Assembly (NCBI RefSeq): GCF_009807095.1
Contig: NZ_WUCC01000008.1
Coordinates: 124,001-188,000, forward strand
DNA from: Rathayibacter sp. VKM Ac-2754
GTDB taxonomy: Bacteria > Actinomycetota > Actinomycetes > Actinomycetales > Microbacteriaceae
Direction: 5' to 3'
Length of the DNA stretch: 64,000 nt
This document shows, piece by piece, positions 5,283-7,815 of this stretch. Each line of letters opens with the position of its first letter. Position 1 is the first letter of the stretch. The notes under the pieces were generated by a model. That model did no database searches. It had not been told where the DNA came from and saw only the letters and a program-made list of their open reading frames with translations. Position numbers and translations under genes: made by a program.

Positions 5283-6983
5283 ATGGTGAACACCATCCAC
5301 GGAGCGCAAGGCGCACGGCGCCGACGCTCGCTCCTCGGCACGAGCGCGATGATCGGGGTCGGCGCCGTCGTCGCCGGCTTCGCCTTCGCCCCTGCGGCGA
5401 GCGCCGTCGAGCCGGTCGACTTCGCTGAGACCGTCACGGTCGACGGCATCATGAACCACCTGGAGGCGTTCCAGGCGATCGCGGACGCCAATGACGGCAA
5501 CCGCGCGATCGGCACGGAGGGCTACGAGCTCAGCGGCCAGTACGTCGAGGCCGTGCTGGCCGAGGCCGGCTACACGACCGAGCGCCAGGACTTCTCGACC
5601 GCCACCCAGGTCATCGACGCGTTCTCGCTCACGACGACGCCCGCCGTCGTCGGCACCCCGATGGAGTTCACCCCGTCGACGCCCGAGGGCGGAGTGACCG
5701 GCGAGCTCATCACTCCGGTCGACCCGCTGGGCTGCACCGCCGACGCCTGGACGGGCCTCGACGCGACCGGCAAGATCGCGCTGGTCAGCCGCGGCACGTG
5801 CGCCTTCCTCGAGAAGTCGATCGCCGCCGGCGCAGCGGGCGCCTCGGCGATCCTGATCTACGACAACGCGCCGAGCGACGCTCTGAACGGCACCTACGGT
5901 GCCCAGGACGAGGCCGCGATCCCCGGCGCCGGCCTGACCCAGGCCGAGGGCGAGTCGCTCCTCGCCGCGCTGCCCTCGACGGCGACGCTGTCGATCCAGC
6001 AGACCACCACCGTCGTGGACACCTTCAACATCATCACCGAGACCGCGGGCGGCGACCACGACAACGTCGTGATGCTCGGCGCGCACCTCGACGGCGTGCC
6101 CGAGGGCCCCGGCATCAACGACAACGGCTCCGGATCGGCGACGCTGCTCGAGACCGCCGTCCAGCTCGCCGAGGCGGGCGAGACCACCAACGCGGTGCGC
6201 TTCGCCTGGTGGGGCGCTGAAGAGGTCGGCCTCGTCGGCTCCTACAACTACGTCGACTCGCTGACGCAGGAGGACGCGGACAAGATCGCGACCTACATGA
6301 ACTTCGACATGGTCGCCTCGCCGAACTACGTGATCTCGGTCTACGACGCGAACGAGTCCACCTACGAGGCGCCGGTCGAGGTCCCCGCGGGCTCGATCGC
6401 CACCGAGAAGGCGTTCACCGACTACTTCGACTCGATCGACCAGCCGTGGATCGACACCGCGTTCGACGGACGCAGCGACTACGACGGCTTCATCTCGGTC
6501 GGCATCCCGTCCTCCGGCGTGTTCACCGGCGCTGACGACATCAAGACCGAGGAGGAGGCGGCTCTGTTCGGCGGTACCGTCGGCATCCCCCACGACCCGA
6601 ACTACCACTCGGCCGGTGACGACCTGGCGAACATCAACCAGGAGGCGCTCGGCATCACCTCGAAGGCGATCGCCTACGTGACCGCCTCGTTCGCGGAGGA
6701 CACCTCGGCCATCGACGCCGAGAAGGACCCGACGACGCCGACGCCGACCCCCACGCCCGCTCCTCCCATCACGCTCCCCACTCGGGAGCAGGTGCTCGAG
6801 CTGATCGCCGCCGGTCTGTCGCCGCGCGAGATCGCCGCTGAGCTCGGCATCACGCAGGGCAACGCCTCGCAGTACGTCGATGCTGTCCTGGACCAGCTGG
6901 GCATCTCCGACCGGGCCGAGGCCGAGCGTCTCGTCCGCGAGTACCTGGCCGACCGGGGCCTGCTCACCGGCGCGACGCTCTGA
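5283..6983 (+). CDS. Secreted M28 family aminopeptidase with PA domain and C-terminal LuxR-like helix-turn-helix
   Basis: This 566-residue exported metallopeptidase starts at ATG 5283, preceded by a gaaaggga Shine-Dalgarno. A Sec signal peptide (Arg-rich start, hydrophobic core, cleavage near ASA at about residue 41) is followed by a protease-associated domain (about 120-225) and an M28 zinc peptidase domain (about 245-480). Candidate di-zinc ligands and catalytic residues appear in order: GAHLDG, NDNGSGS, WGAEEVG, NFDMVAS and PNYHSAGD. Enzymes of this type release N-terminal amino acids outside the cell. A TPTPTPTPAPP linker leads to a final 65 residues that read like a LuxR/GerE DNA-binding domain (LELIAAGLSPREIAAELGIT), which is very odd on an exported enzyme. 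A strong terminator hairpin follows. Confidence 0.9.
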   Translation: MVNTIHGAQGARRRRSLLGTSAMIGVGAVVAGFAFAPAASAVEPVDFAETVTVDGIMNHLEAFQAIADANDGNRAIGTEGYELSGQYVEAVLAEAGYTTERQDFSTATQVIDAFSLTTTPAVVGTPMEFTPSTPEGGVTGELITPVDPLGCTADAWTGLDATGKIALVSRGTCAFLEKSIAAGAAGASAILIYDNAPSDALNGTYGAQDEAAIPGAGLTQAEGESLLAALPSTATLSIQQTTTVVDTFNIITETAGGDHDNVVMLGAHLDGVPEGPGINDNGSGSATLLETAVQLAEAGETTNAVRFAWWGAEEVGLVGSYNYVDSLTQEDADKIATYMNFDMVASPNYVISVYDANESTYEAPVEVPAGSIATEKAFTDYFDSIDQPWIDTAFDGRSDYDGFISVGIPSSGVFTGADDIKTEEEAALFGGTVGIPHDPNYHSAGDDLANINQEALGITSKAIAYVTASFAEDTSAIDAEKDPTTPTPTPTPAPPITLPTREQVLELIAAGLSPREIAAELGITQGNASQYVDAVLDQLGISDRAEAERLVREYLADRGLLTGATL

Positions 6984-6999
6984 CCGGTCGCACCACCCG

Positions 7000-7061
7000 G
7001 GGAACCCCGGTCCGTCGAGGCAGCCGGCACCCGCTGGCCGCCTCGACGGGCCGGGGTTCCC
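7000..7061 (+). terminator. Long hairpin terminator after the M28 peptidase
   Basis: Inverted arms 7000-7021 and 7040-7061 pair over 22 nt with one G-U, around an 18-nt loop. The rest of 6984-7185 holds nothing recognisable. A related hairpin lies at 19189-19249, so this may be a dispersed terminator-type repeat. It may also end the opposing gene at 7186. Confidence 0.75.
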
Positions 7062-7185
7062 TCGTGCAAGCATGTGCGACGGGTGCGGTGAGGTGCCCGG
7101 TGCGGTGAGCTGCAAGGCGGAGGAGGAAGCGATACCGGCGGTATCGCGCCCGACGACAACGCCGCAGATCGCCGTGCCGGGCACC

Positions 7186-7815
7186 TCACCGGCGGGCGCG
7201 GGCGAAGGCCTCCTCGACGTCCTCCTCGGGGTCGGCGAGGAGGCGGAGGGTCGCGAGGGCGTGGATCCGCCGGGCCTGCTCGCCCGACCGGGCAGCGGTC
7301 TCGAGGACGTCGGCGGCGACGTCGCCGAGTATGAGCAGCGCGCGGGTGAGGCTCCGCTGCTCCGGTCGGTCGCCCTCGCCGAGGTGCTCGGCGAGCTGCC
7401 GGGCGAGGGCGGGGCGCTCGCTCTCGGGCGCGAGTCGCGCGGCCGTCCGCCAGGCCGCCCGGGCGACCTCGGGATGCTCGTCGTGCAGCAGCGCGGGCGT
7501 GATCGCGGGCCACGCGCGCGGATCCCCCACCTTCGACAGCGTGTGCAGCGACTGGCTGCGGGCCTGCGGCGACTCCGACACCAGCTCGGGCAGGAGGAGG
7601 TCGACGGTGACAGCGGGATCGTGCCGGGTCAGCGCCCAGGTGAGCATCTCGCGGACCCCGAAGTCGGTCTCGACGGCGCACTGCGCGACGAGCACCGCGG
7701 CGTACTCGTCGGCGGGCCGGGTGCCGGCTGTCATCGCGGCCTGGAGCCTGGAGGACGCGTCGGGCGCGCGAAGGGCCGCGCGGAGCCTGTCGGCAGGTCG
7801 GGTCTCGTCGCTCAT
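7186..7815 (-). CDS. HEAT-repeat protein
   Basis: A 209-residue all-helical protein with HEAT/armadillo-like repeats, for example LLPELVSESPQARSQSLHTL followed by DPRAWPAITPALLHDEHPEV. Similar actinobacterial proteins are annotated as HEAT repeat domain-containing; the repeats usually form a scaffold for protein binding, and no enzymatic motif is seen. The start is placed at ATG 7815 (MSDETRP), 3 nt after AGGAGG; an upstream in-frame start at 7884 would run into the Ku promoter region. It is divergent from ku with 92 bp between start codons. Confidence 0.75.
   Translation of the reverse strand: MSDETRPADRLRAALRAPDASSRLQAAMTAGTRPADEYAAVLVAQCAVETDFGVREMLTWALTRHDPAVTVDLLLPELVSESPQARSQSLHTLSKVGDPRAWPAITPALLHDEHPEVARAAWRTAARLAPESERPALARQLAEHLGEGDRPEQRSLTRALLILGDVAADVLETAARSGEQARRIHALATLRLLADPEEDVEEAFARARR

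Follow-up and report, generated by a model that had tools for sequence, protein, structure and literature searches.

The window, the whole 64,000-nucleotide stretch analyzed here, comes from the 3.97 Mb genome of Rathayibacter sp. VKM Ac-2754. On its forward strand an open reading frame of 566 codons with an ATG start encodes a protein predicted to be an exported aminopeptidase that ends in a domain resembling the DNA-binding domain of LuxR-type regulators. The features of the gene and of its 3' side are as follows.

5283..6983, + strand: exported PA and M28 aminopeptidase with a GerE-like tail, 566 amino acids (open reading frame and Pfam)
5283..5405, + strand: putative export signal, residues 1-41, with cleavage after ASA placed by eye; RRSLL is also compatible with Tat (sequence reading)
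5694..5960, + strand: PA domain, residues 138-226 (Pfam, 5.2e-20)
6027..6680, + strand: Peptidase_M28 domain, residues 249-466 (Pfam, 2e-41)
6717..6773, + strand: short Thr/Pro-rich linker, 19 residues (comparison of orthologues)
6774..6980, + strand: GerE/LuxR-like four-helix tail, residues 498-566 (Pfam, AlphaFold2, and Foldseek)
6855..6896, + strand: equivalent of the recognition helix, residues 525-538, where conservation within the tail is lowest (pairwise identity)
6912..6953, + strand: fourth helix, residues 544-557, containing the conserved ERLVREYLADR, where conservation within the tail is highest (identity and alignment)
7000..7061, no strand assigned: terminator-like hairpin 3' of the stop codon with 29-nt arms, present also in the wall-anchored allele of genome G004

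The PA and Peptidase_M28 profiles were both matched above the Pfam cut-off, and the best solved relative of the peptidase is keratinase KP1 (8ac9; E 2.7e-87 across residues 44-480). H268, D280, E313/E314, D342, and H442, the putative zinc and catalytic residues by comparison with M28 enzymes, are present in the M28 domain and invariant across five aligned orthologues. Because its closest solved relative is a keratinase and the expected zinc residues are kept, the protein looks like an active aminopeptidase.

Inspected by eye, the N-terminus of the peptidase, RRRR-SLLGTSAMIGVGAVVAGFAFAPAASA, looks like an export signal. An earlier note on this DNA had described it as a clear Sec signal peptide; export is borne out by this reading, whereas the assignment to Sec is not, since RRSLL fits the twin-arginine rule too, as does RRRRSLL as a whole (window 5316-5345). 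A motif of the RRRRSLL type was seen by eye in most orthologues, G012 having no exact copy. The layout of an export signal was recognized by eye in 14 of 15 orthologues, including all eight that carry the tail, the N-terminus of the remaining one (L022) not being covered. If Tat is the route used, the GerE-like tail would leave the cell already folded.

The earlier note had proposed that the end of the protein follows the layout of a LuxR/GerE DNA-binding domain. This was confirmed, and its start at L498 (position 6774) was correct, although the tail counts 69 residues rather than the 65 given. With the whole protein as query, Pfam placed a GerE match at residues 503-549 (E 1.3e-6; 28.4 bits against a cut-off of 23.5), which spans positions 9-55 of the 57 in the PF00196 profile, and with the tail alone the match improved to 4.1e-8. 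Among PDB sequences, the best relatives of the tail are NarL/LuxR-type response regulators, with DesR (4ldz) at 1.5e-5 and the LiaR domain (4wsz) at 8e-4. AlphaFold2, given five tails, predicted with moderate confidence (mean pLDDT 76, pTM 0.56) four helices at tail residues 4-12, 17-24, 28-41, and 47-60, as in the GerE layout. When this model was submitted to Foldseek, the best 50 rows were all regulators of the LuxR/NarL/GerE type, with TMq of 0.61-0.78 and a best E of 3e-3, none of these rows reaching 1e-3. Profile, sequence, and model evidence thus agree and confirm, at the level of prediction, a GerE/LuxR-type four-helix fold on an exported peptidase. The full-length structure was predicted at a pLDDT of only 33, too low to assess whether the tail touches the enzyme.

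The comparison set consisted of 15 genomes of the genus (G codes), each of which contains one copy of the orthologue at E 1e-30; in 12 of the 14 other genomes it is 81-86% identical to the window protein over the aligned part. The C-termini fall into two kinds. The tail ends the orthologue in eight genomes (G000, G001, G005, G006, G008, G010, G011, and G013), and the other seven (G002, G003, G004, G007, G009, G012, and G014) encode a Thr/Pro-rich linker followed by a sorting signal, LAATG or LASTG (LPSTG in G014, whose contig ends before the stop codon of the allele), a membrane segment, and a basic end. The linker measures 16-19 residues in the eight tail alleles versus 44-71 in the seven anchored ones. 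In soil and freshwater Actinobacteria, LAXTG is the sorting signal of the class E sortase system (PMC5148588), and most sister alleles have an anchor that matches it. A signal of this kind is absent from the window protein, and a simple scan of the window for ends made up of sorting signal, membrane segment, and basic end found none. Sortase genes are present in all 15 genomes, one to five in each, and it is therefore the peptidase, rather than the organism, that would have left the sortase pathway.

Outside the genus, matches at 1e-80 were obtained in 27 of 150 sampled family genomes, three of these 27 being members of the genus. Among the 25 loci from other genera, 21 were read; for L093, L097, and L098 no reading frame was obtained, and the one obtained for L101 was wrong. 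The nine nearest of these orthologues (55-65% identity) possess sorting signals, LAxTG/LPxTG in eight and LPSVG in one, each accompanied by a membrane segment, and an anchor-type end was not found in the 12 more distant ones read. A GerE-like tail occurs in none of the 21. Since the nine nearest relatives outside the genus are anchored, we infer that the anchor is most simply the older state and that the tail most simply replaced it. The anchored orthologues, seven within the genus and nine outside, resemble the window protein in export signal, PA and M28 domains, and, in most of the genus, synteny, and differ from it in ending with linker, sorting signal, membrane segment, and basic end where it has a GerE-like domain. 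What the earlier note had overlooked is thus that, by allele comparison, the tail occupies the place of a sortase anchor in relatives, so that the event is one of C-terminal module exchange. The note's own proviso, that homologues might lack the tail owing to a frameshift in this copy, does not apply, as seven of the 15 carry a different and functional-looking C-terminus and the tail recurs in seven genomes besides that of the window. Chance, frameshift, misassembly, or read-through as the source of the tail was ruled out, the tail being in frame in eight genomes and under selection.

The gene order around the peptidase, comprising an aldo-keto reductase, an alpha/beta hydrolase, the M28 gene, a HEAT-like protein, Ku, and a nuclease (names assigned by reading of the sequences and without family searches), is conserved in the genomes with tails and partly elsewhere. 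In the trees of the upstream genes (15 genomes) and of the downstream genes (12 genomes), the window's genome groups with the anchored G004 and G007, with splits of 100 and 98. In the M28 tree the window branches apart from these two genomes, and this disagreement with the flanking-gene trees fits a mosaic gene. The window and G004 are 89.5% identical over the 258 bases up to the linker and 90.6% identical over the 416 bases after the stop codon, the latter including 131 intergenic bases, mostly a dispersed repeat, of which 129 match; from linker to stop codon the two sequences are unrelated. The alignment shows the difference between the two alleles to be confined to the linker-to-stop segment. 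The tails are monophyletic, with UFBoot support of 100 in three trees, and therefore arose once. In the close group of the window, homologous recombination is the simplest way in which the tail was introduced or, alternatively, the anchor restored. A separate irregularity was seen within the coding region: at approximately codons 200-250 of the alignment (window ~5880-6030, from the end of PA to M28) the window sequence is nearest to G002/G003, at 80.7%, whereas its identity to G004, G007, and the remaining genomes with tails is no more than 66-71%, a pattern pointing to intragenic recombination.

A tentative source of the tail, in our estimation possible and short of likely, is a NarL-type regulator gene situated immediately downstream of the peptidase, as in G007, from which a single deletion would yield the fusion. 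This would explain where the tail came from and not what it does. The anchored G007 has a histidine kinase and a NarL-type regulator directly downstream on the same strand, and, tails aside, no sequence in the 15 genomes matches the tail profile better than the HTH of this regulator (1.8e-10), the next (3.3e-8) being a relative of it in G009. However, the clade uniting the tails with three such regulators, read unrooted, received a support of only 52 and was lost once 12 more regulators were added (67 of 80 sequences were used in the regulator tree, domains below 8 bits being omitted, and order-level matches below 30 bits were omitted from the enlarged tree). Furthermore, L028, a regulator of another genus, scores equally well or better against the tails, other regulators match equally well at the DNA level, the kinase-regulator pair is located elsewhere in G009 and G012, and no significant remnants of the kinase or of the downstream gene were found beside the tails. 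We therefore regard the G007-type pair as a lead only. Kinase, regulator, and a secreted protein appear together as a cassette, which is found behind the peptidase in G007 (L074, reverse strand 2225-2842 and neighbors) and at the other locations in G009 and G012.

Constraint on the tail was estimated with a codon model and by simple counting. The codon model gave an omega of 0.084 for the tail and 0.044 for the body, and neutrality of the tail was rejected at a cost of 70 log units (lnL -817.4 with omega 0.084 versus -887.2 once omega was set to 1 and kappa to 2). Counting gave a pN/pS of 0.62 for the tail versus 0.23 for the body. Both approaches indicate constraint on the tail, and counting indicates a much weaker one. 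The higher pN/pS, together with the drift of the former DNA face described below, is what would be expected if the tail were an inert, stable C-terminal cap, a folded end acquired by chance fusion that shields the linker from proteolysis and binds nothing. Conservation within the tail argues the other way: the fourth helix and its extension (tail columns 47-61) are 87% identical, the highest value in the tail, and contain the charged and probably exposed ERLVREYLADR, which exceeds the apparent need of core packing. We consider an inert cap doubtful for this reason.

The opposite extreme of conservation is the helix that in regulators reads DNA. Among the eight tails, pairwise identity in this helix (tail columns 28-41) is 45%, the lowest in the tail, compared with 82% in helix 2. 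In four groups of regulators from the same genomes, picked by eye (6, 9, 3, and 3 sequences), the recognition helix is 90, 94, 93, and 100% identical and is never the least conserved part; since overall similarity is higher within the regulator groups than among the tails, only the rank of the helix is comparable. The genome of the window has 25 GerE hits including the tail. Over 57 residues, the window tail has a net charge of -5 versus -1 to +8 in the other 24, and the whole-tail charge is -1 to -5 across the eight tails, only -1 to -2 in G006, G008, G010, and G011. The charge of the recognition helix is 0 to +5 in the regulators, -2 to -5 in four tails, and 0 to +1 in the tails of G006, G008, G010, and G011. 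The Lys that precedes the LG turn in 23 of the 24 regulators is found in none of the eight tails, being replaced by Gln in the window and by Arg in four tails. Of three positions checked, two still have Arg in the tails of G006, G008, G010, and G011. With the recognition helix unconserved among the eight tails, the conserved basic DNA-reading helix of LuxR/NarL regulators is not found in these proteins. Judged from these residues, half of the tails have lost most of their DNA-reading face, and in the other half it is weakened; DNA binding is unlikely for the tails of the window protein, G001, G005, and G013, and the tails of G006, G008, G010, and G011 may bind DNA weakly.

A receiver domain was detected at E 1e-5 in 15 of the 24 other GerE hits, and a domain of an exported enzyme in none of them (stretches of up to 330 amino acids). 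LuxR/NarL regulators are cytoplasmic with a receiver, ligand, or ATPase domain, and by Pfam the window protein is not of this kind. It shares with NarL/FixJ/LuxR regulators (PF00196) the four-helix fold, the profile match, and the spacing, and differs from them in being without a receiver domain, predicted to be exported, acidic, and unconserved in the recognition helix. The earlier note had also considered that part of the protein is retained or released inside the cell. The fold alone speaks for a dual role in which such a part would regulate transcription, and the export signal recognized by eye in all eight tail carriers and the unconserved recognition helix make it highly improbable. It is less far-fetched, and still quite unlikely, that the tail binds DNA outside the cell and tethers the peptidase to extracellular biofilm DNA or to DNA that plant or microbial cells have released: domains of this fold bind DNA and four tails keep Arg at two usual positions, but all eight tails are acidic, the recognition helix drifts, and the Lys of the regulators is missing throughout. 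That the protein is exported and does not bind DNA is, in our assessment, probable.

We searched for the tail in other genomes, scoring at most 15 candidates per genome in the family and order searches, so that weaker or lower-ranked sites may be missed. Among 398 family genomes, five gave a tail match at 1e-9, four of which are the peptidase gene in the genus and one a plain response regulator. Among 396 order genomes there were 13 with a match at 1e-9, that of the window and 12 others that read as ordinary regulators. Plasmid matches amounted to 43 records; among the 20 listed, the annotated ones are regulators and several are without annotation. The phage matches were four records, all without annotation. 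A scan of genome contigs with the tail returned eight loci, four of them from Rathayibacter genomes already among the 15 (VKM Ac-2857, VKM Ac-2856, SD072, and VKM Ac-2630) and four others (L033-L036), namely one response regulator, one sigma-factor-like protein, and two Nocardia frames of great length. Among the matches read from family genomes, order genomes, and genome contigs, the tail was not seen on any other exported protein. In the two Nocardia loci (L034 and L035), the LuxR-like HTH stretch is preceded by more than 1300 codons of the same open frame, which extends beyond the fetched DNA.

Joining of a peptidase-type domain to an HTH is already known, as is module exchange as such. In PMC4000134, metallopeptidase-type domains with a winged HTH are described for CA_C2195 (DUF4910/DUF2172/HTH_47) and Met-AP2, and the authors propose that the HTH of CA_C2195 recognizes the peptide substrate and not DNA, a role stated there to have been shown for Met-AP2. 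The window protein is like these proteins in combining a peptidase-type domain with an HTH. Their HTH, however, is a circularly permuted winged one attached to other peptidase families, whereas the tail of the window protein is predicted to be a tetrahelical GerE domain, and the accessible part of the same paper describes neither an export signal nor an exchange of anchors for them. The RapF-ComA complex (PMC3246441) shows that a GerE-type domain can use its DNA face as a protein interface, although ComA is an intracellular regulator whose domain still binds DNA and the window tail would be exported. The titles and opening lines of abstracts listed from the open-licence literature contain no account of a GerE tail on an exported peptidase; as evidence of absence this is weak. 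The use of a GerE domain in place of a sortase anchor on an exported enzyme appears to be new.

We lean towards the explanation that a peptidase released from the wall acquired the GerE fold in a single event, and that the fold serves outside the cell as a module facing proteins and is not a DNA binder. The suggestion in the earlier note that the fold has been recruited as an extracellular module is the best reading of the data. According to this proposal, the peptidase would be exported and its signal removed; because the sorting signal is missing, it would not be coupled to the wall and would be soluble or loosely held. The GerE module would then work outside the cell facing proteins, its scaffold and helix 4 being kept and the DNA-reading helix being free to drift, to the point of acidity in half of the tails. 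NarL-type regulators dimerize through helix 4. Since this helix is also the best kept part of the tail, our first guess is that the released enzyme self-associates through it. A second guess is that the tail holds a peptide substrate or a partner in the envelope, a role proposed by analogy with Met-AP2 for the winged helix of the peptidase-like protein CA_C2195. We give a slight preference to self-association or binding of a partner or substrate over an inert cap.

The third guess is retention at the surface by noncovalent means, the tail taking over from the lost anchor by binding a wall polymer or a membrane or wall protein. Its conservation and its location exactly at the former position of the anchor are consistent with such a role. 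Against it, no wall-binding family is found among the Pfam and NCBIfam matches, and the tail is acidic, wall polymers often being anionic; the linker of 16-19 residues, compared with 44-71 in the anchored alleles, is short for crossing the wall. We hold retention to be improbable, and continue to favor a protein-facing module on a released enzyme. In evolutionary terms, the chances are even that a GerE/LuxR-type domain was on a single occasion put to use outside the cell in place of the sortase anchor and that the C-termini are exchangeable alleles within the genus, of which one keeps the enzyme bound to the wall and the other sets it free together with a new protein-binding module.

The locus offers a natural experiment in which the same enzyme, at the same locus and with the same flanks, bears a wall anchor in some genomes and a former DNA-binding domain in others. 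If the explanation is correct, it would show a transcription-factor fold losing its ability to read DNA while the scaffold stays under selection, and bacteria switching an enzyme between a wall-bound and a released form. It also carries a warning for annotation, in that an LuxR-type HTH call on an exported protein need not denote a regulator.

A further element was observed 3' of the gene. At window 7086-7191 there is a palindromic element of approximately 105 bases with 28-nt arms, present at the same site in G004. It has 14 further matches in the genome, of 54-98 bases and 78-98% identity (16 rows including the match to itself and its own reverse match), and resembles a small dispersed repeat or MITE.
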